Shown here: one piece after another, positions 13,883 to 40,510 of the stretch | How the letters are laid out: every line of letters starts with the position of its first letter | How positions within the stretch are numbered: the stretch's first letter is position 1 | Source: Thermoflexus sp. | GTDB taxonomy: Bacteria > Chloroflexota > Anaerolineae > B4-G1 > SLSP01 | Assembly: GCA_020722365.1 (NCBI GenBank) | Contig: DYKY01000002.1 | Coordinates: forward strand, 8,266-55,251 | Direction of reading: 5' to 3' | DNA length: 46,986 nucleotides | Translations under genes and position numbers: made by a program | The notes under the pieces: model-generated | Told to the model about the DNA's origin: nothing | The model's input: the letters and a program-made list of their open reading frames with translations, nothing else | The model's database searches: none

Positions 13883-15145
13883 TTATTTTCCCCCCTCTTC
13901 CGTTGTGGCAAACGGGTTTCCGATGGGCAGCAAAATATGAAAGGTGCTACCGGGGAATTTCTCCTCATCGTAGCCGGGACTTTCTGCCCACACTTTGCCG
14001 TTGTGGGCTTCGATAATGCCTTTGGATACGACTAATCCCAGTCCCAAACCGCCCCCCTTGAACGCCGTCTTGCTGGAACGGTGCAATGCCACATCCTCCA
14101 GGACATAGAAGCGCTCAAAGATGTGGATAAGTTCCTGGGGCGGGATGCCGACGCCGGTATCCTTAATCCAGATATGCACGACATCCTCCAGGGTTTCAGC
14201 ATCGATTGTTACTTTCCCATTATCAGGCGTGTATTTAATGGAATTGCTGATGAGGTTACCGATAGCCTGGTGCAATCGTCGCGGGTCGCCCTCGATAACC
14301 GGCGCTTTCTTGATGCCCTGTCCAAGTTCGAGGGTGAGATTGCGTTGTGGACCGAAGCTGCGCAGGTTGTGCAACACTGATTGAATAACCGAATGGATGA
14401 AGACCGGCTCGTGTGAGAGGTCGAGACGATTGGCGTCAATCAGCGAGACGTTGAGGATATCTTGAATGACCTCACTCAATCGTTTGACGGCATCGGAGAC
14501 TTTCGACAAGAGGTGGCGCGGACTGCCTTCGGTTTCTTCTTCGCCGGGAATAGCAGGATTGGAGCGGAGAATTTGCAGATAGCCGTAGATGACGGTGAGC
14601 GGTGTCCGCAACTCGTGCCCGGCCAGTATGACGAAATCGGATTTCATCTTCTCGACGCGTTGTAGTTCGGCGTTGGCATTTTCCAGCTCTCGGATTTTCT
14701 CCTCAAGCCGGTTCACCAGACGTTGATTGTACTCTAGCAGATATTCGGCCTTTTCTTCCGGTGTGCCAACTTCATCCTCCAGGCCTACCATATAGGCGCG
14801 AATCTGGTCGCCAAAGCGATCTACATCGATGGGTTTAGGGATGTAACCATTGCACCCGGCCACCAACGCGCGCTCCCGGTCGCCGCGCAGCGTCGCGGCT
14901 GTGACGGCGATGATGGGGACTTCTCTCAGGCCCTCAAGGGTACGCAGGCGCGTGGTTACCTCGTAGCCATCAAGCCCGCTGATGTTGATATCCATCAGAA
15001 TAAGGTCCGGTTTTTCGCGTCGTGCGGCTTCGATGGCGCCTAGCCCATTGTCGGCTAGCGCGACTTCGAATCCCTCGGCGGTGAGGATGCGTTGGACTAA
15101 CCGCTGACTGGCGAGATCATCTTCAACGTATAGAATCTTCGTCAT
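13883..15145 (-). CDS. Receiver domain-histidine kinase hybrid
   Basis: The 420-residue soluble protein has an N-terminal receiver domain (residues 1-120; VEDD acidic pair, phospho-acceptor Asp in LILMDIN near residue 52, conserved Lys in IPKPID), a coiled-coil linker rich in Glu and Arg (about 130-165), a HisKA dimerisation domain with the phospho-His in AGHELRTPLT, and a HATPase domain with the N box NLISNSIKYTP, G1 DTGVGIP and G2 GGLGLGL. Having the receiver in front and no sensor or membrane domain suggests it acts inside a relay. Its start overlaps the stop of the upstream gene by 4 bp (ATGA), so it is coupled to the threonine-synthase-receiver protein, its likely partner. Confidence 0.88.
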   Translation of the reverse strand: MTKILYVEDDLASQRLVQRILTAEGFEVALADNGLGAIEAARREKPDLILMDINISGLDGYEVTTRLRTLEGLREVPIIAVTAATLRGDRERALVAGCNGYIPKPIDVDRFGDQIRAYMVGLEDEVGTPEEKAEYLLEYNQRLVNRLEEKIRELENANAELQRVEKMKSDFVILAGHELRTPLTVIYGYLQILRSNPAIPGEEETEGSPRHLLSKVSDAVKRLSEVIQDILNVSLIDANRLDLSHEPVFIHSVIQSVLHNLRSFGPQRNLTLELGQGIKKAPVIEGDPRRLHQAIGNLISNSIKYTPDNGKVTIDAETLEDVVHIWIKDTGVGIPPQELIHIFERFYVLEDVALHRSSKTAFKGGGLGLGLVVSKGIIEAHNGKVWAESPGYDEEKFPGSTFHILLPIGNPFATTEEGGK

Positions 15146-16875
15146 TTCTCCTCGTCATTTTTGCCCAGAAGAGCACTGATCTCCTGTAAAAGATCCTCAT
15201 CCATAAACGCCCCTTTTTGTAAGAGCATTTGAATCTGGCCCTGAAGACGTTCGCGGTCTTTCAGGGTCAACTCTTTCGCAGTAATCACGATGACCGGGAT
15301 GTCTTTCAGTTTTGGATCGGCTTTGAGATGGTCGATCACGGCGAACCCGTTCATATCCGGCATCATCAGATCAAGCAGGATCAGATCGGGATGCATTGCG
15401 CGGATCATATCGAGGCCTTCTTTGCCCGTGTGTGCCTCGCCAATTTGGAATTCGCCATGCGTTTGCAGGATGCGTCGCAGTAGCCGGGCAGCCTCTGGAT
15501 TGTCTTCCACAATCATAATCTGTTGCACGCGCTTGTCGAGTTGGTCGAGCGCCCCCAACAATCCTCCTTGAGCCGGCGGAGCGGGAGCCGGCGTTACAGG
15601 CGCGGCCGGCGTGAGCGTCTCTGCGCTTGCCGGCAAAACTTTAAACCAATCTTCCTCAAGCAGGAATTTTTCCACAGGGAAGGTGTGACCAGAACAACAA
15701 ACAACCACCGTCTCATTACGGTTGATGACACCCATATTGAGCAGCTTGAATAGACCTGCAAAGGCTACTGCTGCCGCCGGCTCGATGGATAGGCCCTCCA
15801 TCTTTGCCATCACGTGCAACGCCCGGAAGGCCTCCTCATCGGTGACGGATTCGAAGACACCGCCATAATCCTGCATAACGCGGTACAGATACTCGTAGGC
15901 CGGGCCTGGTGCACCGGTGGCGATGGTAATCACTCGCGTTGTGGGGTCTGTCACCACCTCGGCTTGGGGTAGGTTTTTGCGGAAAGCATTGGTCATTGGG
16001 GCGCAACCGTCGGCCTGGACCAAAGCCAGTTTGGGCAGGCGATTGACCAATCCCATCTGGTACATTTCCTCGTAACCTTTCCAGAAGCCGATAGGCCCCA
16101 TCCCGCCGCTCACGGACTGGATGTACCAATCCGGTGTGCGCCAGGGAACGCCGGGCTGCGGCGGCCCCAGTTCGGCGGCAAGTTGCTCGGCGACCTCAAA
16201 AGCGATGGTTTTCATGCTTTCGCGAGTTCCGGTGTTGCGAATGCCGCGATCCACGAGAATCCCCCGGTGTTCGGCAAACTGCGCTGCCACCTTCTTTGTC
16301 ACGTCGTAGTTGGCGGTCACTTTAACCACCTCGCTACCGTAGATGGCAATCTCGCGCATCTTTTCGGGCGGAACCAGACTCGGCAGGAAAGTCCACAGTT
16401 TAATGCCCGCATGAGCTGAATAGGCGGAGTACGAAATGGCGACATTGCCCGTCGAGGCGACGACGAGTTCAGTGATGCCGGCCTCTTTCATCATCGAGAT
16501 GACCATGGCTGCCTGGCGGTCTTTGAAGGAGTTAGTGGGGTTCTGACGTTCATCTTTGATGAAGAGATTCGGCGTGCCGAGCATCATGCCGAGGTTGTTG
16601 GCGCGCATGAGTGTCGTGCCACCTTCGCCCATTGTGATCTGGAAGTCATCGCGTCTGAGCGGCAGAAGTTCGCGATAGCGCCACATCTTAAAAGGTCGTT
16701 GGCGTAGGATATCGGGCCAGAGCCGTGCGATGCGGTTATAATCGTACCGGACTTCCATCCAATCGTGTCCACATGCGCTACAGATGTGTGTGGGCAGGAC
16801 AAATGGCTGGCGATGACCGCATTTACCACATTCGAGTTCAATATCCATTGGGATGGCGGCTGGAATAACTTGCAT
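15142..16875 (-). CDS. Threonine-synthase-like PLP enzyme fused to a receiver domain
   Basis: Residues 1-45 form a zinc ribbon (CGKCG, then CSACG). Residues about 60-430 match the threonine synthase branch of fold-type II PLP enzymes: NSFKDRQAA carries the PLP lysine, ASTGNVAIS the phosphate-binding or substrate loop, and SGGMGPIGFWKG the glycine-rich phosphate loop. That family converts O-phosphohomoserine to threonine. After a Pro/Ala linker, residues about 460-577 are a complete receiver domain: MIVEDN, the phospho-acceptor Asp in LILLDLMMP, and a conserved Lys position near TAKE. Standard threonine synthases have no receiver. The kinase gene overlaps its 3' end by 4 bp, so phosphorylation of the enzyme by that kinase is a plausible inference. 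A related PLP activity is possible. Confidence 0.82.
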   Translation of the reverse strand: MQVIPAAIPMDIELECGKCGHRQPFVLPTHICSACGHDWMEVRYDYNRIARLWPDILRQRPFKMWRYRELLPLRRDDFQITMGEGGTTLMRANNLGMMLGTPNLFIKDERQNPTNSFKDRQAAMVISMMKEAGITELVVASTGNVAISYSAYSAHAGIKLWTFLPSLVPPEKMREIAIYGSEVVKVTANYDVTKKVAAQFAEHRGILVDRGIRNTGTRESMKTIAFEVAEQLAAELGPPQPGVPWRTPDWYIQSVSGGMGPIGFWKGYEEMYQMGLVNRLPKLALVQADGCAPMTNAFRKNLPQAEVVTDPTTRVITIATGAPGPAYEYLYRVMQDYGGVFESVTDEEAFRALHVMAKMEGLSIEPAAAVAFAGLFKLLNMGVINRNETVVVCCSGHTFPVEKFLLEEDWFKVLPASAETLTPAAPVTPAPAPPAQGGLLGALDQLDKRVQQIMIVEDNPEAARLLRRILQTHGEFQIGEAHTGKEGLDMIRAMHPDLILLDLMMPDMNGFAVIDHLKADPKLKDIPVIVITAKELTLKDRERLQGQIQMLLQKGAFMDEDLLQEISALLGKNDEEK

Positions 16876-16996
16876 GATTGCCTCTATCGTTAAATGCTGT
16901 TAAGTGGTATCCTGGTTAATGAATTGGCATATCAAGAATAGCACAAGTTTTTATAAGAACAAGCGTAAGGGGATTGGCGAACGGTTCACTAGAGTT

Positions 16997-17025
16997 TTGC
17001 ACTTTCAGTAGTTCTGTTGTACAAT
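16997..17025 (+). promoter_or_regulatory. Candidate sigma-70-type promoter for the kinase operon
   Basis: TTGCAC at 16997-17002 and TACAAT at 17020-17025 are separated by 17 bp. The -10 matches the consensus at five of six bases, the -35 at only three. It lies in the 267-bp divergent spacer, upstream of the kinase gene, with the expected transcript start in the inverted repeat at 17031. Confidence 0.4.
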
Positions 17026-17030
17026 TCAGA

Positions 17031-17050
17031 CAGCCAACAACCGTTGGCTG
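17031..17050. promoter_or_regulatory. Inverted repeat at the predicted transcript start
   Basis: CAGCCAAC (17031-17038) and GTTGGCTG (17043-17050) form a perfect 8-bp palindrome with a 4-nt centre. It sits 5-25 bp downstream of the candidate -10 box, where a repressor would block initiation. It could instead be a 5' leader hairpin. It also lies between the divergent threonine-synthase and kinase operons. Confidence 0.5.
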
Positions 17051-17142
17051 TTTGGAGAATGGATAGGCATAGATGGCGCTTCCTGCTTATTCTCGTATAA
17101 TGTGGTTGTATTTGCTCTTATGCTAACAGAAGGTTTTCAGGG

Positions 17143-19263
17143 ATGAGTGATCGTAAATCAGAGCCTGCACCCGAACAAAAGGGCGGGTCTGCTGTCAATC
17201 TGGAGACGCGGCGAATGCGTGGCCTTTCGCAGCGGTTGCGGCAGCCACTATTCCCGCGACCAGAACCCTCGGTGGCGCCGAAATCCTCAGCGTCGCCACA
17301 AACGCATCTGGTGGAGGAGCCGCTTTCGGGAACGCCGGCCGGTGTGCCTGCTGCTAAACCTGACGGTTCAGTATCAGGTGCAGCGGCATCGGCAGAAACG
17401 CAGCAAATTGCCGGGAAGCCTCAGGTCTCGTATGAAGGCTTGCTTTCGGCGGGGGTGCAATTGCAAGGTCGCTACAAGATCCTGGGGGTCATCGGGATCG
17501 GTGGTATGGGGGCAGTTTACAAGGCTCAAGACTTGCGTTTTCCGGGCGTATTGCGTTTGTGCGCGGTGAAGGAGATGATCAACACGGCATTGGACTCGCA
17601 AGTGCGACAGATGATCGTGCGCAACTTCGAGCGCGAGGCGAGTATTCTGGCGACACTGGGGCATCCCGCGATCCCACAGGTTTACGACTACTTTACCGAA
17701 GGCTCGCGCTGTTATCTGGTCGAAGAGTTCGTGACGGGCAAGGACCTCGAGGCGCGCCTGGCAGAGGCGGAAGGCTTTTTCTCCGAGGGCATGGTCGCCG
17801 ATTGGGCTGTGCAGCTCTGTGAGGTGCTTTCGTATTTGCATAACCACAAACCGCGTCCGATCATCTTTCGAGACTTGAAGCCCTCCAACATTATGTTGGA
17901 CGATCATGACCGGATCCGTCTAGTTGATTTTGGCATTGCTAAGCTTTTTCAGAGTGGCGAGAAGGGCACGATGATTGGCACCGAGGGCTATTCTCCCCCG
18001 GAGCAGTATCGCGGTATCGCCGAACCACGCGGTGATATCTATGCGCTCGGCGCCACGTTACACCATCTCTTGAGCAAACAGGATCCACGCCTGGAGCCGC
18101 CTTTCTCTTTTCATGAGCGTCCTATCCATAAGACAAATCCTACCGTTTCCCGCGAATTGATCGGGGTGATCGACAAAGCGCTGGAGTATGACATTAACAA
18201 GCGTTGGGGGTCGGCGGAAGAATTCCGGCGCGCTCTCGCCGCCAGCCTTTCGATCAAGATCGGCAGCGGATCGTTGGGTGACAAAACGGCAACTTTTGAT
18301 ACGGGCGTTGTCAAACCGCTGTGGAAGTTTGCCTGTGAAGATGAAATCCGCGGCTCGGTGACGGTAGCTGACGGTATGGTTTTTGTGCCTTCGTATGACC
18401 ACAATGTGTACGCTTTAGCTGAGGATAACGGTAAATTCTTGTGGAAGTATCCGACCGAAGGCGGCATTGCCTGCAAACCCTGGGTCTCCGAAGGGATGGT
18501 AATTTTTGGTTCGATCGACAAAGTGATTTATTCCGTGGATGTTAGAACCGGACATTTGCTGTGGACGGCGCCGACACAAGGGCGGATTTTCTCGTCGCCC
18601 TTTGGCGAGTTAGGGCACATTTTCATCGGTTCTGACGATCGACAAATCTATGCCATCCACCAGATGTCTGGTCGGCGCGCGTGGACCTATGCGGCAGATG
18701 GCGAAATCCGTTCGCGGCCGCTGGTGGCAGAGAGTTTGATTCTGTTTGCATGCCAGATGGGTATGGTGTACGCGTTGAGCTTAAACCGCGAACAACGCTG
18801 GCGTTTCCGCGCGCGACGCGGCTTTCTAGCCTCACCGGTGATGCACAATGGATTGGTATTCATTGGATCGCTGGACAATCATTTCTATGCCCTGGATGTG
18901 CGCTCCGGTTGGGCTGCCTGGAAGTACCGATCTGGCGGAAGCATTGTCTCGACGGCGGTGATTTGGAAAAACATGGTCTTTTTTGGATCCAGCGATGGCT
19001 TCGTATATGCTTTGGATGCTGACGACGGGCGTGTCGTCTGGCGTTATCAAACCGATAACCAGATCACCGCTGCCGCGAACGTCGCCGAGGGCAATCTCTA
19101 CATTGGTGGTGTGGACGGCAATCTGTATTGCTTCGATGCGCTTACCGGGGCTGTGCGTTGGCATTATCAGACCGATGGCCCGATCACCGGCGCACCACAG
19201 ATTGCCGATGGCATTGTCTATATAGGTTCTGCGGATCATTACGTGTATGCGATTCCGATGTGA
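17143..19263 (+). CDS. Ser/Thr protein kinase with C-terminal PQQ propeller
   Basis: The 706-residue protein has a Pro/Ser-rich, probably disordered N terminus (1-105) and a Hanks-type kinase domain (about 110-375): glycine loop IGIGGMGAVYKA, CAVKEM with the ATP lysine, FRDLKPSN as catalytic loop (F replaces the usual H of HRD), DFGIAK, and GTEGYSPPEQY in place of APE. From about 385 to the end come seven or so PQQ/quinoprotein-type blades, with repeated YALD, W.Y.TD and VY.GS words, which probably form a ligand-binding propeller. There is no membrane span, so the sensor part is intracellular, unlike PASTA kinases. It heads the operon and faces the PP2C phosphatase 20 bp downstream. Confidence 0.9.
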   Translation: MSDRKSEPAPEQKGGSAVNLETRRMRGLSQRLRQPLFPRPEPSVAPKSSASPQTHLVEEPLSGTPAGVPAAKPDGSVSGAAASAETQQIAGKPQVSYEGLLSAGVQLQGRYKILGVIGIGGMGAVYKAQDLRFPGVLRLCAVKEMINTALDSQVRQMIVRNFEREASILATLGHPAIPQVYDYFTEGSRCYLVEEFVTGKDLEARLAEAEGFFSEGMVADWAVQLCEVLSYLHNHKPRPIIFRDLKPSNIMLDDHDRIRLVDFGIAKLFQSGEKGTMIGTEGYSPPEQYRGIAEPRGDIYALGATLHHLLSKQDPRLEPPFSFHERPIHKTNPTVSRELIGVIDKALEYDINKRWGSAEEFRRALAASLSIKIGSGSLGDKTATFDTGVVKPLWKFACEDEIRGSVTVADGMVFVPSYDHNVYALAEDNGKFLWKYPTEGGIACKPWVSEGMVIFGSIDKVIYSVDVRTGHLLWTAPTQGRIFSSPFGELGHIFIGSDDRQIYAIHQMSGRRAWTYAADGEIRSRPLVAESLILFACQMGMVYALSLNREQRWRFRARRGFLASPVMHNGLVFIGSLDNHFYALDVRSGWAAWKYRSGGSIVSTAVIWKNMVFFGSSDGFVYALDADDGRVVWRYQTDNQITAAANVAEGNLYIGGVDGNLYCFDALTGAVRWHYQTDGPITGAPQIADGIVYIGSADHYVYAIPM

Positions 19264-19283
19264 CCTGGAACTGTGGGGGAAGA

Positions 19284-20246
19284 ATGGCGGATATCAAGGC
19301 TTGGTTGCGTAATAGATTTGGTAAGTCAGCGCGGCGTGCGCAAGAGGAAAGTGCCGCCGCGAGTCTGTTCAAAAAGCCCGAAACGGCCCCGATTGAAGGG
19401 GCGGAGGCTGAACGTGCTCTGGCAGAGAGAGGGCGGCGCGCCTGGGAGGCTTCGGGCGTTTTCTCCGTCGGGTGGTGTACCGACGTGGGACGTGTACGCA
19501 ACCATAACGAAGACGCGCTTTTTATCCTGTCTAGCGAACAGGAGGCGAACAATGCCGCCCCCCCGTTTGGGCTTTTTATGTTAGCCGATGGGATGGGCGG
19601 GCACCAATCCGGTGAGGTTGCCAGCGCGCTGGCGCTGCGGGCGGCTGCCGGCTGGTTGCTTTCTCATGTTTATTTCCCTCTGGTGGATGGTACGGATCGT
19701 GGAGCCGATCAGCCTTCGTTAACCGACATGGTTCGTGAGGCCATCTCGCATGCTAACCGGGTTGTTACGCGCGACTACCCCGGCAGCGGCAGTACTTTAA
19801 CGTGTGGCATGATCCTCGGAGATCGTCTTTTTGTGGGGCATGTTGGGGACAGCCGCGCCTACCTGTTGCGTGTGGGTCAACCTGCCAGACAATTGACCAA
19901 GGATCATTCGCTGGTCAATCGCTTGATAGAAATGGGGCAGTTAACTGAGGAAGAAGCAGCAGTCCATCCGCAACGCAATGTGTTGTATCGGGCGATCGGG
20001 CAAGGCGCAACGCTGGAAGTCGATGTTTTCACCTATGCGCTCGAACCTGGAGATCGCCTGCTTCTGTGCAGCGATGGCTTGTGGGGAGCGGTAGACGAAG
20101 CAGAAATCTGGCGCTTGATCCAAGAAGCGCCGACACCACAGCAGGCTTGCGTACAGTTAGTCGCAGCAGCCAATGCGGCTGGTGGCAACGACAATATCTC
20201 AGTCGTATTGGTTGAAACCTGGCGTGGGCAAAGCCAGGGGGTGTGA
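19284..20246 (+). CDS. PP2C-family Ser/Thr phosphatase
   Basis: The 320-residue protein has an 80-residue N-terminal extension rich in Ala and Arg, then a complete PPM catalytic domain: [10 protein letters not shown] with the metal Asp, [45 protein letters not shown] and [12 protein letters not shown]. It removes phosphate from Ser/Thr residues using two metal ions, and is the natural counterpart of the kinase just upstream. The ATG at 19284 follows GGGGGAAG; the open frame extends to 19128 inside the kinase gene but adds only out-of-frame kinase sequence. The TGA overlaps the ATG of the next gene by one base (TGATG), indicating coupling. No membrane segment is seen. Confidence 0.92.
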
Positions 20247-21715
20247 TGACAACGATTGACTCCCAGAAAGACTATTACGCGGCCCTAAATGTCTCCCTGA
20301 ATGCGGACGACGATGAAATCAAACAGGCCTATCGCGAAAAAGCACGTGAGTATCATCCCGACAGCGGACATGGTGATGCGGAGCGTTTCCGGGAAGTCCA
20401 GGAAGCCTACGAAGTTTTGCGCGACGAGGTCTTGCGGCGTGCCTATGACCGGCAGCGGGAGAAGCGGGGACTTTCTGAGGATGCGCTGGTGGGCTTGGCC
20501 TTGTCGCAGAGCCGCACCGAAGCATACCCTCTAAATGAACCCCAAGTGTTCTATGTTCTGGTTGATATTGCGCCGCACACTGAGGAACAAAAGGAAGTTA
20601 CGCGCCAACATTTGAACGTTGCCCTGGTGGTCGATTGCAGTACCTCAATGAGTGGCGTGCGGATGCAGAATATCAAGATCGCCGCTACGGACCTGATCGA
20701 ATCTCTCGACTCTCACGATCGTCTGGCGCTCGTCGCGTTCAGCGATCGCGCTGAGGTGTTGGCGTCGACGCATCTGATGGACAACCCGCGCATCTTTAAA
20801 TCTGCGTTGGCTGCGTTGATTCCCAGTGGGGGCACCGAGATCTACCAGGGTTTATTGGCTGGACTGGAAGAAGTGCGCCGGTATGCTTCTCCGGAGATGG
20901 TTAACCATGTCATTTTATTGACGGATGGTCGCACCTATGGAGATGAGATGCGCGCGCTGACTGAGGCGCGGCGTGCTGCCGCTGAAGGGATCGGTATCTC
21001 CGCTTTCGGGATCGGCGAAGACTGGAACGATGAATTCCTGGACGATCTGGCACGGAGTGCAGGCGGCGTCTCGCGTTATATTCGCGTTCCCTCGGATGTG
21101 CGCGCTGCTCTTAAGCGGCAAATCCAGGGATTGAGCACTATGCTGCTGCAAAATGTGAAGCTGGAAGTGAATGTGGCTCCGTACGTCCATATCCAGGCGG
21201 TTTATCGAGCGGCACCCTATTTGGAAATTCTGGAACATTCGGAAAACAACGTCATTGCTCTCGGCAATGTGATGGCGGATGAACCGGTATCGGTGGTGTT
21301 GGAAATCGTTGTTGCTCAAGCCGTTACAGGTGAGCGTCGCATCGCACGGTTGGATATGGTCGGTGAGCCGATCACTGCTTCTGAACCAATTCGTCTGCGT
21401 CAGGACGTTACTGTGACGTTTACGCTGGAACCTAAAGAGGAATCGGCGCCGACCAATTTACTCAACCGCCTGGCCCGGCTGAGTGTTTTTAGTCTCCAGG
21501 AAAAAGCCTGGAGAGCACTGGGTGTAGGAGATGTGCACCAGGCGACTACCTATTTGGAATATGCTGCAACCCGGTTGTTCGATATGGGCCATCGAGATCT
21601 GGGTCAGGCTGCGATGTTGGAAGTCAGCCGGCTTATGCATGGCGGCGATCCAACCAAGGAAGGCCGCAAGAAATTACGCTATGGCACTCGAAGTCTAACA
21701 TCCCCTGTGCGATAG
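20246..21715 (+). CDS. J-domain protein with von Willebrand A domain
   Basis: The 489-residue protein starts with a J domain (about residues 7-70: [24 protein letters not shown] at the loop, and RRAYDRQR), the part of DnaJ that stimulates the ATPase of Hsp70. There is no G/F or zinc region. A VWA domain follows (about 125-300), with a complete metal site: DCSTS, GGTEI and LTDGR. The remaining 190 residues include a beta-rich part and a helical tail. VWA domains bind protein partners through a metal ion. The combination suggests recruitment of Hsp70 to a VWA-bound client, perhaps a phosphoprotein of this operon. Its start overlaps the phosphatase stop by one base; the GTG three bases earlier is a less likely start. 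Confidence 0.85.
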
Positions 21716-21740
21716 TTTGGGGCAAGTGGGAGGAGAAAAT

Positions 21741-22268
21741 ATGACACAGAAAGCAAACAAAGTCGTTTGTCCCTCGTGTGGGGCGGAAAACCTGCCCGGA
21801 ACACTCTTCTGCATTCAGTGCGGCACCTACCTGCCATCGGGCGGCCCTTTGCGTACGGAGCCGCTTCCAGAGCAGGAAGACGGTCGCCCTGCTCGTCCTC
21901 GTCAGGAGGGCCAGGAGGGTGAAGAAGCGTGGGCGCTGAACATTGAAGTCGAGGTGCTGAACACCGGCCGAAAAGTGTTGCTCTCGGCAGACCGCGAAAT
22001 CCTGGTGGGACGCCTGGACGCGGCCCACGGTGTTTTCCCGGAACTGGACATGACAACCGATGGTGGCCTGGAACAGGGCGTTTCACGACGCCATGCCCGG
22101 ATATATACGCGGGAAGGAACGTGCTTTGTCGAAGACCTCGACAGTACCAATGGCACATTTTTGAATGAAGAGCGAATTACGCCTTATTTGCCCTATGCTT
22201 TTCGTGATGGCGACCTGTTGATGTTTGGCACGATGCGCTCGAAAGTGCATATCTACCCCAATCATTAG
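21741..22268 (+). CDS. Zinc-ribbon/FHA phosphothreonine-binding protein
   Basis: The 175-residue protein has an N-terminal zinc ribbon (CPSCG, then CIQCG, residues 10-30), a flexible acidic linker, and an FHA domain over about residues 75-170. The FHA marks are EILVGR, VSRRHARI and LDSTNGTFLNEERI, which place the Arg, Ser and Asn that bind phosphothreonine. It is most likely a reader of the kinase's phosphorylation. AGGAGA at 21731-21736 supports the ATG at 21741. It follows the J/VWA gene by 25 bp. The zinc ribbon is of the type common in Chloroflexota signalling proteins and may mediate protein contacts. Confidence 0.88.
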   Translation: MTQKANKVVCPSCGAENLPGTLFCIQCGTYLPSGGPLRTEPLPEQEDGRPARPRQEGQEGEEAWALNIEVEVLNTGRKVLLSADREILVGRLDAAHGVFPELDMTTDGGLEQGVSRRHARIYTREGTCFVEDLDSTNGTFLNEERITPYLPYAFRDGDLLMFGTMRSKVHIYPNH

Positions 22269-22286
22269 CGGAATAGAGGAGTCACT

Positions 22287-22529
22287 ATGGCACAAACCGT
22301 TTTGATACATGTCATGAACGAAGATGCGATTGTCGGAGAGATTGAGGAACTTCCCGATCAAAACGCACCGTTTCTCAAAGTCTCCAGTCCGCGTCTGCGA
22401 GATGGGCGTGATGTCTCCTATTTCTTGCCGGAGACAAACATTGTACTTATCCCCTGGACCCGCATCCATAGCATCGAAATCATGCCGACCGAGGGAGAGG
22501 AAAAGCTTGTTACCTTTATCCGCGAGTAA
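22287..22529 (+). CDS. Small conserved-looking protein of the signalling operon, unknown function
   Basis: This 80-residue protein is not recognised. It is acidic, without membrane segment or cysteine, and reads as alternating beta strands ([33 protein letters not shown]), compatible with a small beta barrel or Sm-like fold. It lies 18 bp after the FHA gene with GAGGAG before the ATG, and its last 23 bp overlap the regulator gene. Its place between the phosphopeptide reader and the response regulator suggests an adaptor role, but this is only inferred from position. Confidence 0.65.
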
Positions 22530-23262
22530 TCCAGAAACGACGATTCGCGACGTTCACCCATTGGTATTGGTAGTGGATGACGAACCTCGAATCATCCGCT
22601 TTGTGCGCATCAACCTGGAAATGGAAGGTTTCCGCGTTATCGAAGCCGCCAATGGGTTGGAGGCCGTGGATCAAGTCCGCGAGAAAATGCCCGATGCAGT
22701 GCTGTTGGACGTTTCGATGCCGGAGATGGACGGCTTCGAGACTTTGAGGATGATCCGTGAGATATCCAGCGTGCCGGTGGTCATGTTGACCGTGCGCAGT
22801 TCTGAAGAGGATAAAGTGCGCGGGCTGGATCTCGGCGCTGATGATTATATCACCAAACCATTTAGCCCCCGCGAGTTGGTAAGTCGCTTGCGCGCCGTCT
22901 TGCGCCGGGTGCAAGCCGCGTCACCCACCAGCGCCTCCGTTTTGGAGATTGACGACCACCTCAGCCTGGATTTCAATACCGGCGAAGTGCTGGTGGAAGG
23001 GGAGCGCATCAAATTGCGTCCCATCGAGTTCCGGCTACTGCGTCATTTGATTGAAAACGCCGGATGGACTGTCCCATACAGCACGTTGCTTTCCAAAGTG
23101 TGGGGGTATGAATACAAAGACGCGGTCTCCTATCTGCGTCTGTACGTCAATTACTTACGGAAGAAGATCGAGCCTGATCCGGCAAACCCACGTTATATCT
23201 TCACGGAGCGGGGGATGGGCTACCGTTTTGCTGATTTTCGTCGCCAACAAGTTGAAGAATGA
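22507..23262 (+). CDS. OmpR/PhoB-family response regulator
   Basis: The 251-residue protein has a receiver domain (about 20-135: VVDDEP, phospho-acceptor Asp in [13 protein letters not shown], conserved Thr in MLTVRS, Lys in YITKPF) and an OmpR-type winged helix (about 150-250: [14 protein letters not shown], then [16 protein letters not shown] and [10 protein letters not shown]). It should bind direct repeats as a dimer. The TTG at 22507, six bases after GGGAGAGG, is preferred; the open frame reaches to 22324 but that region is the neighbouring gene in another frame. No cognate histidine kinase is next to it, so it may be driven by the Ser/Thr kinase or by the hybrid kinase at 13883. Confidence 0.88.
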
Positions 23263-23271
23263 GAGGGCTAT

Positions 23272-23790
23272 GTGAAGTCTTACAAAATCGTGATCACCGG
23301 CCCATTTAATGCCGGCAAGACAGCTTTTATTCACACCATTAGCGACATCGCAATGGTCACCACCGAGCGCCGGATTTCCGATCCTGGCGTGGCGACTGCC
23401 GGCAAGTCTGAGACAACCGTGGCGATGGATTATGGTCAAAAACGACTTGGCGATGCGCTGTTGCACCTGTACGGCACGCCAGGGCAGGCCCGCTTCGAGT
23501 TTATGTGGTCGATTTTGGCGAGAGAGATGGATGCGTTTGTGTTGCTTGTGGACAGCACTGATAAGGTCAGCTTGCTGGACGCCAAGCAAGTGATGTGGCA
23601 ATTCCGCAAACAAGCCAAAGTGCCATACGTGGTAGCCGCCAATAAACAGGATCACCGTGCTGCCCTACCGCCGGCAGAAATCCGGCGGCTGTTGGCTGTG
23701 TCGAAGGATGTGACAGTTATGCCGTGTGTCGCTCATGAAAAGGAATCGGTCTTGCGAATTCTGGAGCATGTGCGCCGGTTGTTAAGATAG
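23272..23790 (+). CDS. Small Ras-like GTPase
   Basis: The 172-residue protein is a P-loop GTPase of the bacterial small-GTPase group that includes the Streptomyces conservon and MglA relatives. G1 is TGPFNAGKTAF (residues 7-17), G3 is reduced to LYGTPGQARFEF, and G4 is AANKQD; the G5 region is not obvious. The usual DxxG of G3 is changed to YGTPG, as in this group, and Gln follows. These proteins act as switches at the membrane or in polarity, often with a roadblock partner, which is not seen here. The GTG at 23272 is the only reasonable start, 9 bp after the regulator stop with GAGAGGG upstream. It closes the operon. Confidence 0.82.
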   Translation: MKSYKIVITGPFNAGKTAFIHTISDIAMVTTERRISDPGVATAGKSETTVAMDYGQKRLGDALLHLYGTPGQARFEFMWSILAREMDAFVLLVDSTDKVSLLDAKQVMWQFRKQAKVPYVVAANKQDHRAALPPAEIRRLLAVSKDVTVMPCVAHEKESVLRILEHVRRLLR

Positions 23791-23909
23791 CCGGGCGGCG
23801 CCAGGGCAAGCGCGCTCGACACTGTTATATTCGATTTTGCCTTTAAGCGGCGGGCGTTGTTGCCGTATCTGAGTTTGGTCTCTCTCATCTGTCGACCGAA
23901 AGTCTGATT

Positions 23910-24359
23910 ATGCGTTGGAAGTTCGATCCGTTTCTGAATTGCGCTGCCGTGCGTGAGGCGCTGGCGCGGTTGATGCACGACCCGCGCTTTACACCCGCGC
24001 GTGTGGTGCAGGCTCTTCGCCGCGACACAGTTGTCGAAACCCCCTTGATGGTCGATGTGCACACGACGGCGGATGAAATCGTGGTGCAAGCATCGCTTCC
24101 TGGACTCAAGCCCAAAGATGTGGAAATCAAGCTCGAACGTGAGCGGCTGACGATCCGCGGCAAGTTCCCCGCGCCCATGACCAACGTCGCGTATGTCTTG
24201 CAGGAACGCCAGACTGGATATTTTTGCCGGATGCTCGCACTGAATGTGCCGGTGGATGGCACTCGCGCTGAAGCCCGGCTGGTGGATGGTGTGCTGACGT
24301 TGGTTCTGCCGAAGGTCCAGGAGCCGCAAACCAGGGTGACGTACGTACGTCCCAAATAA
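23910..24359 (+). CDS. Hsp20/alpha-crystallin small heat shock protein
   Basis: The 149-residue protein is an ATP-independent holdase. The alpha-crystallin domain (about residues 48-140) starts with TPLMVDVHTTADEIVVQASLPG, continues with PKDVEIKLERERLTIRG and ends with DGVLTLVLPK, the conserved A/G-x-L-x(n)-L-x-L-x-P region. A helical N-terminal arm of 45 residues would drive oligomerisation. No strong ribosome site precedes the ATG at 23910, but no better start is present. It is 120 bp after the GTPase and was probably transcribed on its own or by read-through. No heat-shock promoter element was recognised. Confidence 0.88.
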   Translation: MRWKFDPFLNCAAVREALARLMHDPRFTPARVVQALRRDTVVETPLMVDVHTTADEIVVQASLPGLKPKDVEIKLERERLTIRGKFPAPMTNVAYVLQERQTGYFCRMLALNVPVDGTRAEARLVDGVLTLVLPKVQEPQTRVTYVRPK

Positions 24360-27500: not shown

Positions 27501-30500
27501 GGCTACACCGACACCGTCGTCTCCACCGTTCGCGTGACAACGGATTCTGAGGGCCAGGCCGTGGCGACGCTCGTTCCACCGCACAGCGGCACTTACATCG
27601 TCGCAGCGGATACGCTGGATGCGGACGACCATCCCGTACATACCGAGATTATGGTGTGGGTGAGTGGTACGGAGACGGCATCCTGGCCGGTGGAAGCGAA
27701 CCAGGTCACGCCCGTTGCCGACGCGCGCGTGTATGATGTGGGTGACCGGGCCAGAATCCTGTTGCCGGTGGCGTTCGACGGTCCATATCAAATGTTGATG
27801 ACGGTAGAACGCGACGGCATCCTCGCCGTCGAGCGGCAGGTCTTAGACACGCCGAACCCTGTGGTGGAGATACCGATTATCGAGGATTACGTCCCGAATG
27901 TCTACGTCTCGTTTGTGCTGATTCACGGCGTCACCGAGACGCTGGCTGCGCCTGAGGTGCGAGCCGGTTACGTGATGGTGAAGGTTGCCCCCACTGCCCA
28001 GACATTGAAAGTCACCGCACTGCCTGACAAGACGGCGTACCGACCGGGGGACACTGTGACTCTGACCGTGCATACGGTCGATGCCGCCGATCGCCCGGCA
28101 GACGCGGAGGTAGGCGTGGCATTGGTGGATAAGGCGCTGCTGTCACGCGGAGTCAGCGTTCCCTCCCTGGTCGAGGCGTTCTACGGCGTGCGTCCCTTGC
28201 AGGTGATGACGGGCGATGGGCTGCTGGCGCTCTCCGGTCGCCAGGATGAGCTTATGTCGGCCGAGGAGGCTGCGTATCGTATGGTTCGCTTTGGCGAAGG
28301 CGTAACCTCACCTGTTTCAGCCGGCGCACGCTTCGCCGATGCTGTGGTGTGGGAGGGCGACAGGCGTACCAGTGCAAGCGGCGAGACGAAGCTTACCTTT
28401 GTCCTGCCTGATACGCCTGCGACGTGGGTAGCGGTGGTTTACGCGCTTACCGCCAACACAAAAGTTGGCGAGGCGCAGGTGGAGATTGTCGCCGCCCAGC
28501 CGCTGCGCATCCAACCCGTGACGCCGCGCTTTCTGGTGATGGGGGATCAGGCGGAAGTCGCCGCCTTGTTGTACAATCACACGGACAAGCCTTACTCGGG
28601 TGCCGTGCAGTTGACGGCGGGGGCGGGAGCGCGAGTGGATACATTGATACGCATGGTTGATCTGCCTGCGGGCGGGCGGGCGCGCGTGGTGTGGACAGTT
28701 TCCGTCACACCGAGCAACGCTGAGACACTGGCGTTGGCTTTCACGGCTACAGGGGGCGGATATCGGGACGGGATTTCCGTCGAGTTACCCCTTTATCGCT
28801 ATGTGATGCCGGACGTGATAGGGACTGCCGGTGTGCTTGACGAGGCCGGGACACGTCTGGAAACGGTGCTGGTTCCGCCAGAGGGTGGGGATGATAGTGT
28901 GTTAATTGTGCGCGTCGCTTCTTCCCCGGTCGGGGCGCTGGTAGACACGCTGACGTACCTGGACCAATATCCTTACGCCTCTACGGATGTGTTGATCGAG
29001 CGTTTTGCATCCTATGTCTTCACCTACCGCGCGCTTCAGGAGTTGGGTGTTTCGGATGCTGTCCTGCTGGCGCGCCTGCAAACTTCAATTGTTCAAGCCC
29101 TGGAGAAACTCTATGCGCGCCAAAACGCGGACGGTAGTTGGGATTGGTGGGAAGGACAAAGCGCGCGCGAAGATTTCGCGCGCGAAGATTTCGCACGCGA
29201 AGACTTCGCACGCGAAGACTTCGCGCTGCATCTTACGGCATTTGCAACCCTGGGATTAATCAGGGCAGAACGCGCAGGCTTTGACGTGCGCCAGGAAGTC
29301 CTGGAGCGGGCACTTGATTACATTTACGACAATCTCATGCTGAGCTTGTCCGGCGCGGCGCGCCGGCCACATCATGCTTTGGGGCTGTACGTATTGTCGG
29401 ATGCGGGGATTCCCTGGCCTTCCGGCGCCGGCGGAGCGCTGTACGCCGGGCGTGACTCATTGGGTGTCGTGGGACGTGCCTATCTGGCGCTGGCGGTAGG
29501 AACATCCGATCCTTCGGACTCGCGGCTGTTGGTTCTGCTGGATGGATTGCGGAGCGAAGCCAAGTTGTCGACAACAGGTGCGCACTGGGCAGGTGCGGGT
29601 GATACGATTGCCGGTGACGGCGGCAGCATGTACGGGGATACCGATGTCGTTGTTACCAGCATCGCCGTGGACGCATTAGCGCGTTTTGCGCCCAATGATC
29701 CACTGTTGGCCCAGGCCGCGCGTTGGTTGATGGTCACGCAGCGTGGCGGACGGTGGCAGACAACGTATGAGACAGCCTGGGCTATCGCCGGTCTGTCTGA
29801 TGTGTTGCGCGCTTCTGGCAATCTGGCGTCGGACTATGATTGGAGTGTTGCACTGAACGGTGTGACGTTGACGGAGTCTACGGTGCAAGCTGGTGCGAGC
29901 GATGCCGTGGTTGCCGTCCCATGGCAGTTGAAGGCCGGGCTTTTGACCGAGAACGGCGCAGGTGAAAGCCCTCTTCCAATTTTGTTGCGGGATCGCCCCA
30001 ACATTCTGGAGATTGCCCGTGGCAGTGGGATAGGTCAACTGTACTACACCGCACATCTGGAATTATCCGCTCCGGTGGCGCAGATTGCGGCGGAAAGCCG
30101 CGGATTGATGCTGCGCCGGGAGTACTGCGCTGTTGAGGATGGTACGTCTGTAAACCGGGTGGTCGCCCTGGCGGATTGCCGTCCGCTGACCGAATTACGT
30201 GTCGGTGAACAGGTGATGGTCCGCCTGACCCTGATTGCTCCGCAGGCGCGCGCCTACGTGCGCCTGGAAGTCCCGCATCCGGCGGGGTTTGTTCCGGTTG
30301 ATATGACCTCCGGTGTGACAACGGACTGCGCGCTGGATCAAGGCACAGGTTGGTGGGCGGCGCCCTTCGAGTGGTGTGAGGTGGTGGACGATGGGCGGGA
30401 ATCCTCGCGCGTGGTCTTTTTCGCCTCTGAAGTGGCGGCGGGGACATACCAGGTGGTGTACCTGTTGCGCGCGGTCATACCGGGAACTTACGGAGCGCTG

Positions 30501-35621: not shown

Positions 35622-35676
35622 TAAGAAATCCGGTACGACAGAGTATAAGTTCTCTTTGGTGAGATGTCAAAAAAGC

Positions 35677-35823
35677 AATCAGCTATCAGCAATCAGCTAT
35701 CAGCAGTCAGCTATCAGCAGTCAGCTATCAGCAGTCAGCTATCAGCAGTCAGCTATCAGCAATCAGCAATCAGCTATCAGCAGTCAGCTATCAGCAATCA
35801 GCAATCAGCTATCAGCATCCAGC
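35677..35823. repeat. Heptamer array, WRTCAGC family (21 units)
   Basis: Twenty-one uninterrupted 7-bp units read AATCAGC, TATCAGC or AGTCAGC, with TATCAGC mostly alternating with the others; the last is ATCCAGC. The reading frames through it give only Ser/Gln/Ala-rich peptides and are not genes. It lies in a 412-bp gap without genes between divergent transcription units. Confidence 0.95.
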
Positions 35824-35942
35824 AACCCGTAACCCACAATCCGTAACCCACAACCCACAATCCGTAACCCACAACCCACAACCCGTAACCCACAACCCGT
35901 AACCCACACCCCACAACCCGTAACTCGCAACTCATAACCCGC
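35824..35942. repeat. Heptamer array, AACCCRY family (17 units), in phase with the preceding array
   Basis: Directly after the last WRTCAGC unit, with no change of register, come seventeen 7-bp units: AACCCGT, AACCCAC, AATCCGT and variants, with decayed copies (AACTCGC, AACTCAT) near the end at 35942. The sequence resembles a telomere repeat but the period is 7, and the unit changes along the array. About 40 bp separate it from the SDR start at 35986. Confidence 0.93.
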
Positions 35943-35985
35943 AACTATTTCTTGCATATCTCCTGCTTTTGCCTATACTCAAAGT

Positions 35986-37500: not shown

Positions 37501-37971
37501 ATGAACATCGGCATCATCGTCTATTCCCTCACCAACCATACCCTGACGGCGGCTACGCGCCTGAAAGAAAAACTGTCCGCGGATGAGCACGAAGTGACCC
37601 TGGAACGGGCGGAAACCGTCGGCCCGGCGAAGCCGCAGTTCGAGAACGCTGAACTGAAGACAAAGCCCCCGGTTGATGGCTACGACGCGCTGGTGTTTGC
37701 CTGCCCCGTGCGGGGAGGCACGATTCCATCGCCGATGAAGCGCTATCTGGAGCAGATTCCGTCGTTGCAGGATAAGAAAGTGGCGTGTCTGGTCACGCAC
37801 TTCTTCCGGCGGGAGTGGGGGGCCAACCAGGTGCTCGCGGCAATGCAGGCACTCTGCGAATCCAAAGGCGCGACCGTCCGCGGAACGGGCGATGTGCGAT
37901 GGTTCAGCCTGCATCGCAAGCAGCAGATTGCACAGGTTGTTGAGAACGTGAGTCAGTTATATGGCAGTTAA
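37501..37971 (+). CDS. Flavodoxin-like protein
   Basis: The 156-residue protein has the flavodoxin fold: an FMN phosphate loop YSLTNHT (residues 8-14), YDALVFACPVRGGTIPSPMKRYLEQIP in the middle, and KKVACLVTHFFRREWG. It is likely a cytoplasmic electron carrier or quinone-reductase-like protein. It starts 3 bp after the DUF2283 stop, and its last 11 bp overlap the restriction enzyme gene. The 3' third (from about 37793) recurs at 40537-40713 as a truncated copy about four-fifths identical. Confidence 0.85.
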   Translation: MNIGIIVYSLTNHTLTAATRLKEKLSADEHEVTLERAETVGPAKPQFENAELKTKPPVDGYDALVFACPVRGGTIPSPMKRYLEQIPSLQDKKVACLVTHFFRREWGANQVLAAMQALCESKGATVRGTGDVRWFSLHRKQQIAQVVENVSQLYGS

Positions 37972-38923
37972 CAGAGATAAGCCGGATAGATGGAAAGACG
38001 ATATGGCGCAGTCGGTGGATATGTACAACGACTGGTTTATGCGCTTTGCGCCTGAGGCCTATCGAACTACGCGTGTGCAGACAACCAACGATGTCGAGGC
38101 GACGCTCAAAGCAACCAGGAACCTGATGGATGTCGGGGTGGAGCTACTGAAGACGCGCCCGTCGGTGTTGCCATCACTGCGAATGTGCACTTGTCCACCG
38201 CTGGCTGTGGACCGGTTGATCGGACTCGCCGGTGTATCGGGAAACCTCGTCAAGGTTATGGAAAAGCACAATAGGTTGCCGTTGCGCATGTCTCAGGTTG
38301 AGCTAGACCGTGATCTTGAAAAGATTGGAGCGACTATCGAGAGGATGGCCGACCCAGATATATTCGTCTGGCTGGAACGCGGCAATGATCCGTCGGAACT
38401 GGAGTTGTATCGCGCCGCAACGATTGTCGCAGACCGCTTGTGCGGCGCTGTCGCCAATCCGATCATCCGCAATGCACAGGAAAAGCGCCAGCTTGCCGCA
38501 ATCGGTGAGTGGCTCACGGCTTTGGGCTACCGGAATTTGCCGGCAGGCGAGGGGACGAAGTTCGACGCGATGCAGCCGGGGACATTTTCATTCCGATTGA
38601 ACGTGCCTGTTGAACAGGAAGGCACGGGCAAGACGATCAATATTCCGGTAGATGCCGTTGTTATGCCGAAGACGGCGCGACCAGGCGACCTGCCGTTGCT
38701 GATCGAGGCGAAGTCGGCAGGGGATTTTACGAATGTCAACAAGCGCCGCAAGGAAGAAGCCACGAAGATGAACCAGTTGCGCCGGACTTACGGAAAGGAC
38801 GTGCGGTTCATCCTGTTCCTGTGCGGGTATTTCGACAGCGGGTATCTCGGCTACGAGGCGGCAGAAGGCATCGACTGGGTATGGGAGCACCGTATCGACG
38901 ATCTCCGGGAGTTTGGCCTGTAG
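37961..38923 (+). CDS. XamI-like type II restriction endonuclease
   Basis: The 320-residue protein resembles the XamI family of restriction enzymes (XamI cuts at GTCGAC). It opens with RDKPDRWKDD and SVDMYNDWFMRFAPEAYRTTR, typical of that family. The C-terminal half has a PD-(D/E)xK-like core: VDAVV with the Asp, then LLIEAKSAGDF with Glu and Lys, followed by KRRKEEATKMNQLR. The specificity of this protein is not shown by sequence alone; GTCGAC does occur in this window (for example near 6666). Its ATG lies within the flavodoxin gene. The methyltransferase gene follows without a gap. Confidence 0.75.
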   Translation: MAVNRDKPDRWKDDMAQSVDMYNDWFMRFAPEAYRTTRVQTTNDVEATLKATRNLMDVGVELLKTRPSVLPSLRMCTCPPLAVDRLIGLAGVSGNLVKVMEKHNRLPLRMSQVELDRDLEKIGATIERMADPDIFVWLERGNDPSELELYRAATIVADRLCGAVANPIIRNAQEKRQLAAIGEWLTALGYRNLPAGEGTKFDAMQPGTFSFRLNVPVEQEGTGKTINIPVDAVVMPKTARPGDLPLLIEAKSAGDFTNVNKRRKEEATKMNQLRRTYGKDVRFILFLCGYFDSGYLGYEAAEGIDWVWEHRIDDLREFGL

Positions 38924-40510
38924 ATGATGACAACAGCGATTGCCGAACTTGAGGCGCGACGACTGGCCTTGCAAGATGCGTTGGACGCGAAGAAAGAAGC
39001 GGCCGAACGGAATAGGATGGGGCAATTTGCGACACCCACTCAATTGGCCGTTGACATTCTGCGGTATGCCAGGGCGCAACTCGGCAAGAGCGAGAACGTG
39101 CGTTTCATTGACCCAGCAATCGGTACGGGAGCGTTCTATTCGGCCCTGCTCGACGTGTTCTCGAAGGAGCGTATCGGTGCGGCGGTCGGGTACGAGATCG
39201 ATCCATACTACGGTGCGCCAGCAGCAGAATTGTGGCGCGACACGGGACTGGATATCCGTCTCGAAGACTTTACACGGGCCGAAGCGCCGGCGGATACCGA
39301 AAAGTTTGATCTGCTGATCTGCAATCCGCCCTATGTACGACATCACCACCTCATCAACGGCGAGAAACAGCGCTTGAAGCTGCGCGCGCAGGATGTCTGC
39401 GGCGTCGAGATCAGCGGGCTGGCCGGGCTGTATTGCTATTTCCTCGGTCTGAGCCACGCGTGGTTGAAAGATGGCGGATTGGCCGGATGGCTTATCCCGA
39501 GCGAATTTATGGATGTGAACTACGGTGTTGCGGTGAAGCGGTATCTGCTCGACAAGGTGACGTTCCTGCACATTCACCGGTTCGACCCCAACGACGTGCA
39601 GTTCAATGATGCGCTTGTATCGTCAGCCGTGGTGTGGTTTCGCAAGGAGCCGCCGTCGCCGGAGCAGCAAGTACGGTTCACTTACGGCGGTTCGCTGCAA
39701 CGGCCGAAGTTGGAACGCCTGGTGCCGGTCGAGACGTTGCGTCGCGATCCGAAGTGGACGCGCTACCCGCTGAAGGAGAGCTACGAACCCACTGAAGGAC
39801 CGGTTCTGAGCGATTTCTTCAAGATCAAGCGTGGCCTGGTTACGGGAAACAACGATTACTTCATCCTGCCGGTCGAGGAAATCGCGCGGCGCGGATTGCC
39901 GATGGAGGCATTCAAGCCGATACTGCCGAGTCCCAGGGACTTGCCGGATGACGAGGTCAAAGCGGACAAAGCAGGCAATCCCATTCTTGAGAAGCAGTTG
40001 TTCCTTCTGGATCCCCCGTGGACCGAAGAGAAAATTAGAAACCATTACCCGAAGTTGTGGGCGTATCTCGAAGAGGGTAAAGCGCAGGGGGTCGCGGAAA
40101 GCTATCTGTGCAGGCATAGAAATCCCTGGTATGCCCAGGAAGATCGCCCGCCGGCGCCATTTGTATGTACTTATCTTGGCCGGAGCGACAAAAAGAACGG
40201 GCGGCCGTTCCGCTTCATCCTGAACCACTCGCAGGCGACGGCCGCGAATGTGTATTTGATGCTCTATCCAAAGTCGCCGCTTGCGCGCGCTCTACAGGAT
40301 AGCCCGGAACTGAAACGGCGGGTTTGGCTGTGTCTGAACGAGATTTCCACGAAGGCGCTGCTCGCTGAAGGCCGCGTCTACGGCGGCGGGCTGCACAAGC
40401 TCGAACCGCGCGAACTTGGCAATGTACCCGCCAGGTTTATACTGGACTTGTTGCCGGATGTTCGCGCGCCAAAGGTCCCTAAACAACTTGGACTCTTTGC
40501 CGGGGCATGA
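38924..40510 (+). CDS. N6-adenine DNA methyltransferase of the XamI-like system
   Basis: The 528-residue protein has AdoMet motif I as FIDPAIGTGAFYSALL (about residues 49-64) and catalytic motif IV as LLICNPPYVRHHHL near 130, the gamma-class order of Eco57I-type adenine methylases. NRMGQFATPTQLAVDIL precedes motif I as usual. The C-terminal half is a target-recognition domain. Its job is to protect the host site cut by the enzyme encoded directly upstream; a stand-alone bifunctional enzyme is unlikely because no nuclease motif is visible. The ATG at 38924 touches the upstream stop. Confidence 0.85.
   Translation: MMTTAIAELEARRLALQDALDAKKEAAERNRMGQFATPTQLAVDILRYARAQLGKSENVRFIDPAIGTGAFYSALLDVFSKERIGAAVGYEIDPYYGAPAAELWRDTGLDIRLEDFTRAEAPADTEKFDLLICNPPYVRHHHLINGEKQRLKLRAQDVCGVEISGLAGLYCYFLGLSHAWLKDGGLAGWLIPSEFMDVNYGVAVKRYLLDKVTFLHIHRFDPNDVQFNDALVSSAVVWFRKEPPSPEQQVRFTYGGSLQRPKLERLVPVETLRRDPKWTRYPLKESYEPTEGPVLSDFFKIKRGLVTGNNDYFILPVEEIARRGLPMEAFKPILPSPRDLPDDEVKADKAGNPILEKQLFLLDPPWTEEKIRNHYPKLWAYLEEGKAQGVAESYLCRHRNPWYAQEDRPPAPFVCTYLGRSDKKNGRPFRFILNHSQATAANVYLMLYPKSPLARALQDSPELKRRVWLCLNEISTKALLAEGRVYGGGLHKLEPRELGNVPARFILDLLPDVRAPKVPKQLGLFAGA

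Follow-up and report, generated by a model that had tools for sequence, protein, structure and literature searches.

The J-VWA Gene and Its Operon

The window, by which we mean the whole stretch of 46,986 nt of Thermoflexus sp. DNA that was analyzed, carries on its forward strand the genes for a Ser/Thr protein kinase, a PP2C phosphatase, a protein joining a J domain to a von Willebrand A (VWA) domain (J-VWA), and a zinc-ribbon-FHA protein, followed by a response regulator, a small GTPase and an Hsp20 protein (Table 1). The J-VWA reading frame is intact from its ATG start to its TAG stop, and the ATG shares one base with the stop codon of the PP2C gene (TGATG). For the zinc-ribbon-FHA gene, the listed open reading frame starts at a TTG at position 21717. 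Divergent to the kinase lies a gene (15142–16875, minus strand) for a threonine-synthase-type PLP enzyme (PALP, E 2.1e-59) with a C-terminal response-regulator receiver domain; its best matches lie at the same place in the loci L020, L022, L023, L028, L029 and L032.

TABLE 1. Features of the J-VWA locus, in window coordinates.
Feature	Position	Strand	Basis
Ser/Thr protein kinase with PQQ-type beta-propeller	17143..19263	+	Pfam Pkinase E 1.1e-40, Beta-prop_ACSF4 1.1e-73
PP2C phosphatase	19278..20246	+	Pfam PP2C E 1.5e-16
J-VWA protein, 489 aa: J domain, split beta-sandwich, VWA, C-terminal helix bundle	20246..21715	+	ORF, Pfam, AlphaFold2, structural alignment
J domain, aa 9–68, HPD = H37-P38-D39	20270..20449	+	Pfam DnaJ E 2.1e-20
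VWA domain, aa 124–280; MIDAS D130, S132, S134, T197, D227	20615..21085	+	Pfam VWA E 6.4e-22
Helix bundle, aa 403–482, C-terminal, ArnB RHB-like	21452..21691	+	AlphaFold2 model and VIA-align to 8s05_B
T481-R482, candidate phospho-threonine site in the tail K-x-[IL]-[KR]-Y-G-T-R-x-L	21686..21691	+	Conservation; phosphorylation putative
Zinc-ribbon-FHA protein, ArnA-like domain order	21741..22268	+	Pfam FHA E 5.7e-16, Zn_Ribbon_1 9.6e-08
PhoB/OmpR-type response regulator, likely output	22324..23262	+	Pfam Response_reg, Trans_reg_C
Small Ras-like GTPase, optional member	23272..23790	+	Domain scan, neighbor counts
Hsp20 small heat-shock protein, optional member	23910..24359	+	Pfam HSP20 E 3.1e-15

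The Pfam DnaJ and VWA matches in J-VWA are both far better than the cut-off. Together with the individual residues and the relatives described below, they confirm the claim of the sequence-only reading that an intact HPD J domain is joined to a VWA domain whose MIDAS residues, five in number, are all there. That reading left out that the VWA is part of a larger body with sandwich and bundle.

We ruled out that J-VWA is a DnaJ proper with G/F region, zinc finger and C-terminal domain, as the full-length DnaJ profile TIGR02349 scored 78.5 bits, far under its cut-off of 377.2, with the match confined to residues 9–139. Class C J-domain proteins have neither a G/F region nor a zinc finger. J-VWA resembles them in the HPD-bearing N-terminal J domain by which class C Hsp40 proteins are recognized, in the four-helix pattern and in the conserved helix II; it differs from them in the ArnB-like body of the putative hub and in its fixed kinase/PP2C/FHA operon.

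Conservation of the J and VWA Domains

We assembled 222 homologous open reading frames, which gave 146 unique homologs (score >150, identical cores merged), 117 with and 29 without a J domain. Since a J-bearing query was used to retrieve the loci by similarity, close relatives are over-represented in this set. The HPD motif is kept in 114 of the 117 J-bearing proteins, including some only ∼35% identical to that of the window, and the complete set of five MIDAS residues in 117/117 homologs with and 29/29 without J. In an order-level alignment (the window plus 35 proteins) HPD, DxSxS, T and D are each found in 36/36. The sequence-only reading had named poor conservation of the HPD or MIDAS residues in relatives as a ground for abandoning it; both are kept (HPD 114/117, MIDAS 146/146), so this half of its test left the reading standing.

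Mean pairwise identity is almost the same for the J (48.3%) and VWA (48.2%) domains, lower for the bundle (43%), sandwich (25%) and linker (21%), and highest among the six segments compared for the tail motif K-x-[IL]-[KR]-Y-G-T-R-x-L (63%). The J domain shows J-type helix II features, with nearly fixed positions at F48 (113/117), L58 (117/117) and K/R26 (112/117). R27 and R36 of E. coli DnaJ are, we assume, helix-II/loop contacts with DnaK; the equivalent positions in the window are the non-basic E31 and S40, and they are variable in relatives. Three homologs have lost the HPD motif with the MIDAS intact (L077, QPE; L079, HSE; L206, AAG), and their J domains are possibly decay intermediates.

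J-VWA is single copy in its own genome. Among the 40 nearest genomes, including its own, 38 have a homolog and none was found in G009 and G016. The match begins inside the J domain in 37 of the 40, which shows that the fusion is no assembly artifact, and at residue 79 in G008, whose homolog has no J. Homologs with or without J were detected in 138 of 298 genomes of the class (E up to 1e-30) and in 148 of 400 genomes of the phylum, and all 80 relatives listed of 357 are, by their titles, Chloroflexota. Beyond the class most matches listed begin near residue 65–82, i.e., without J, and three J-bearing homologs were fetched from outside it (L193, L226, L227). To place the J domain on a tree, 144 sequences left after a length and score filter were clustered at 72% identity to 99 rows. 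The presence or absence of J changes seven times on this tree, which cannot separate gain from loss. In L104, from the window's own family, the module is present and the frame opens without J directly after PP2C. The 29 of 146 homologs without J otherwise retain the module or the fold; thus, J is not needed for the core.

A plasmid search for J-VWA outside Chloroflexota gave 199 records, none reaching 80% query coverage, and the eight plasmid VWA proteins from the best 20 of these 199 records that were translated and scanned gave no J match. VWA-kinase-FHA-PP2C operons without J were seen on Deinococcus plasmids (L253, 4944–10813; L248, 2944–6927). One of the two directly follows lexA and pprA, hinting at a DNA-damage setting for that operon.

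A Conserved Four-Gene Module

Neighbors were counted over unique loci with enough flank for each partner. The kinase is within reach at 62/62 loci with J and 25/26 without, PP2C at 102/108 and 24/27, and the FHA protein at 108/111 and 28/29, respectively. These counts define the core module as kinase-PP2C-VWA-FHA, to which J comes and goes, and these four genes are conserved together across Chloroflexota whether or not J is present. PP2C was not found at six of the 108 J loci; in the J-VWA operons L029, L036, L041 and L208 none was detected between kinase and hub. Catalytic and ligand positions in the partners hardly vary: in ungapped rows the kinase lysine (91/91), HRD-type Asp (95/95) and DFG Asp (96/96) and the PP2C Asp positions (two in 134/134, a third in 132/132) are invariant, as are the four cysteines and G98, R99 and S123 of the FHA partner (139/139 each).

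The genes further downstream are less regular. The response regulator occurs at 59/71 J loci vs 4/26 without J, the small GTPase at 25/66 vs 1/26 and Hsp20 at 17/61 vs 1/26. We rejected a tie between response regulator and J, as the link is confounded by descent: of four independent pairs 1.3 went the same way, 0.0 the opposite way and 2.7 showed no difference. Likewise, Hsp20 was rejected as a sign of a heat-stress or proteostasis output, the tree giving only four independent pairs with a median p of 1, and it counts as no more than a lead. The response regulator lies next in most J-bearing operons and is likely their output.

DnaK (contig C245) and further HSP70 matches are encoded in the own genome. 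On contig C19 (L231, L241) the frames of a second HSP70 (724 aa) and of a small J protein (173 aa) lie close to each other, and this HSP70 is possibly an alternative partner of J-VWA. We found no MoxR AAA+ gene among the scanned genes at 13883–24359; the genome's MoxR hits that pass the cut-off are encoded on contigs C73 and C111 and the window is on C149, and we rejected J-VWA as half of a MoxR-VWA chaperone pair, the MoxR gene being unlinked.

An ArnB-Like Body Is Predicted for J-VWA

The AlphaFold2 model of J-VWA has a mean pLDDT of 90.6 and a pTM of 0.84. Its best structural match is 4fx5, a VWA protein of Catenulispora acidiphila with no J in the matched part (J-VWA 69–487, Z 37.9). With VIA-align, residues 80–487 of the model superpose on residues 2–381 of ArnB in the ArnAB complex (8s05_B; Z 31.0, 370 residues, rmsd 4.0, 17% identity), and residues 80–486 on the ArnB paralog 5a8j (Z 26.3). 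The J domain lies outside the residues covered by the Foldseek and VIA-align matches listed, so these bear on the body and do not test J. As modeled, the body is an ArnB/Sec23-24-type core, made of the VWA, a sandwich split by the VWA, and a C-terminal helix bundle. A Pfam scan of 30 members (E up to 1) listed no ArnB C-terminal domain family, and in the PDB a profile built from the helix-bundle sequences found no ArnB. The model of the FHA protein is a generic FHA fold, with the ArnA FHA ranking 16th.

In the Sulfolobus system the Hanks kinase ArnC phosphorylates three threonines in the helix bundle of ArnB, T353, T363 and T375, after which the FHA domain of ArnA binds the protein (PMC12852372). 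In unphosphorylated ArnB the zinc finger of ArnA docks on the sandwich and bundle, and within the former on its first loop; most ArnB-like proteins elsewhere are, per these authors, not part of multi-phosphorylation processes (PMC12852372, same sections). As far as the accessible parts of the sources go, ArnA-ArnB of Sulfolobus acidocaldarius (8s05, 5a8j, 5a8i; PMC6509490, PMC12852372) shares with the Chloroflexota module the VWA with split beta-sandwich, helix bundle and intact MIDAS, a partner that starts with a zinc finger and ends with an FHA domain, a Hanks-type kinase and a phosphatase. The two differ in several points. The Arn system is archaeal, its output is motility and ArnB has no J domain; in a search for the Hsp70 family 12 of the 14 controls gave a match, and S. 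acidocaldarius was not one of them. The Arn phosphatase is PP2A and not PP2C, the N-terminus of the Arn kinase is OB and TPR-like and the Chloroflexota kinase instead carries a beta-propeller, and the RanBP2-type zinc finger of ArnA differs in type from the ribbon of the FHA partner (Zn_Ribbon_1). By analogy, we describe the module as ArnAB-like without classing it as ArnAB, because phosphothreonine-FHA binding is here a candidate feature.

T481 Is a Candidate Switch Site

The T481 column holds Thr in 116/116 untruncated J-bearing proteins and in 26/29 without J. Two J-less, FHA-adjacent proteins (L216, L224) have no Thr in this column and other Thr in their tails. As controls we used six MerR-paired homologs from cyanobacterial and Deinococcus plasmids, for which no annotated kinase or FHA gene is present in the fetched stretch. 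Thr is absent from the column in 6/6, and five of the six tails have no Thr at all (L251 has one). Deinococcus VWA proteins that sit beside kinase, FHA and PP2C (L248, L253) have several Thr in the tail. These tail controls are few and related to one another; a seventh homolog, L250, was excluded from the comparison for its extended C-terminus. From this pattern in the sequences T481 is a candidate phospho-threonine, and its conservation may also be structural. An Arg follows T375 of ArnB in the published peptide (PMC6509490; numbering as in PMC12852372; available parts of both). We rejected T481 as the exact equivalent of T375, the match resting on the alignment end points (487 on 381) and the shared Thr-Arg; as the helix-bundle profile finds no ArnB, the two sites are claimed as similar only.

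Proposed Role of J-VWA and Alternatives

With the ArnB/Sec23-24-type body and the zinc-ribbon-FHA partner, a phosphorylation-switched hub is the best-supported role, J being an added arm. We thus propose, with moderate confidence and by analogy with ArnA-ArnB, that J-VWA acts as the hub in a Ser/Thr phospho-switch of the cytoplasm and bears a putative Hsp70-recruiting arm. As in ArnAB, the zinc-ribbon-FHA protein, loosely docked by its ribbon, would clamp the phospho-threonine through its FHA domain and thereby change the state of the hub, which PP2C would reset. The J domain, which a short linker ties to strand one of the sandwich, would recruit DnaK to the hub, and DnaK might then remodel, assemble or release whatever partner the hub or its MIDAS holds. 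The response regulator would be the likely output in most J-bearing operons. Points against such a hub are the non-basic E31 and S40, the 29/146 homologs without J, the three HPD-less J domains, the generic FHA and the PP2C missing in 6/108 loci. The possibly structural conservation of T481, its absence from L216 and L224 and what the PMC12852372 authors say of most ArnB-like proteins also count against it.

The linker is short in the AlphaFold2 model, J reaching to about residue 73 and the first sandwich strand starting at 82. In ArnAB it is the first loop of the sandwich that receives the zinc finger, so DnaK and the ribbon could compete for the hub. We suggest, tentatively and as something we rather doubt, that the switch could be gated by proteostasis, with the amount of misfolded protein determining how far Hsp70 occupies the hub, and this occupancy competing with zinc-ribbon/FHA docking beside the point where J is attached and gating Ser/Thr signaling to the response regulator. 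If true, the Hsp70 cycle would here be coupled directly and covalently to a Hanks-kinase pathway of bacteria.

The sequence-only reading saw in J-VWA a specialized co-chaperone for the signaling operon. Spelled out, the VWA/MIDAS would capture a client and J pass it to DnaK, with kinase, phosphatase and FHA only tuning the process. Parts of this hold up: J is under the same constraint as the VWA, HPD and MIDAS are conserved together, the kinase/PP2C/FHA operon is there, DnaK is encoded, Hsp20 lies downstream in 17/61 J loci, and for MoxR systems the vWA domain is described as a co-chaperone that binds peptides (PMC7159879). The VWA as a stand-alone binder is not supported, as the body is ArnB-like. 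Against a client-transfer role, the same partners occur in the module without J, J is dispensable to it (J-less orthologs, L104), and the Hsp20 link is lost under phylogenetic control (four pairs, median p 1). Since the MIDAS is kept in 29/29 J-less homologs, it is independent of a chaperone role. We consider the co-chaperone unlikely.

In a chaperone-titration sensor, DnaK held by J would keep the switch off until misfolded proteins drew it away; the kinase/FHA branch would then fire and bring the response regulator into action. In favor of this, J is on the hub and not on an output protein, and the response regulator is mainly found at J-bearing loci (59/71 vs 4/26). Given that this link is confounded by descent, we regard such a sensor as distinctly unlikely.

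The same three protein classes, VWA, PP2C and kinase, make up the TerY-P triads of metal-stress or phage-defense signaling, and J could then be just a docking or oligomerizing piece. The available text describes these triads as adjacent genes for VWA, PP2C and a kinase-zinc ribbon (PMC11090510). The TerY-P kinase has a C-terminal zinc ribbon or OB fold, whereas here the kinase has neither but a beta-propeller, and the ribbon is on the FHA protein; the module is not classed as TerY-P because of this missing kinase fusion. It also adds sandwich, helix bundle and J to the VWA, plus the FHA protein. No ter gene was found among the open reading frames scanned in the window, the TerY-family check of J-VWA gave only a weak sub-threshold vWA-TerF-like match (E 0.019), and J-VWA matches no PADLOC model (E up to 0.01). 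The presence of a homolog in 38 of the 40 nearest genomes is also unlike typical defense islands, and we find this alternative improbable. A J domain that is just a remnant or a structural add-on, with no Hsp70 partnership, would fit the seven changes on the tree, the three HPD-less copies and the variable R27/R36-type contacts, but the HPD is kept in 114/117 proteins down to ∼35% identity and J is as conserved as the VWA, which makes it very hard to believe.

A hub with an added J arm would be a bacterial counterpart of the ArnA-ArnB switch, so far known from one archaeal motility circuit, with hub, FHA partner, kinase and phosphatase in one conserved operon. Within one bacterial lineage the putative Hsp70-recruiting arm is on most copies and absent from others, with the module otherwise constant, which gives natural pairs with and without J for asking what part Hsp70 plays in kinase signaling. 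The arrangement suggests that protein-quality control and kinase signaling are wired together in one Chloroflexota operon. Related themes occur separately in the GAP1-N2 GTPase systems, namely kinase, PP2C and vWA as neighbors, and HSP70/GrpE with a DnaJ-FNIII fusion (PMC7159879, available sections). There DnaJ is on an FNIII-repeat protein, and these sections describe no DnaJ-vWA fusion. The kinase architectures surveyed in the accessible part of PMC1262709 include no DnaJ, and our literature search, with most subscription papers outside its reach, found no description of a J-VWA fusion.

Other Features of the Window

Elsewhere in the window, a 15-base tandem repeat of 4.3 copies (29162–29226) lies in an alpha-2-macroglobulin-like gene, where it encodes repeated AREDF. 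Two neighboring 7/14/35-base tandem arrays with different units were seen at 35674–35945. A XamI-type restriction endonuclease (E 7.7e-119) and then an Eco57I-type methylase are encoded at 37961–40510.
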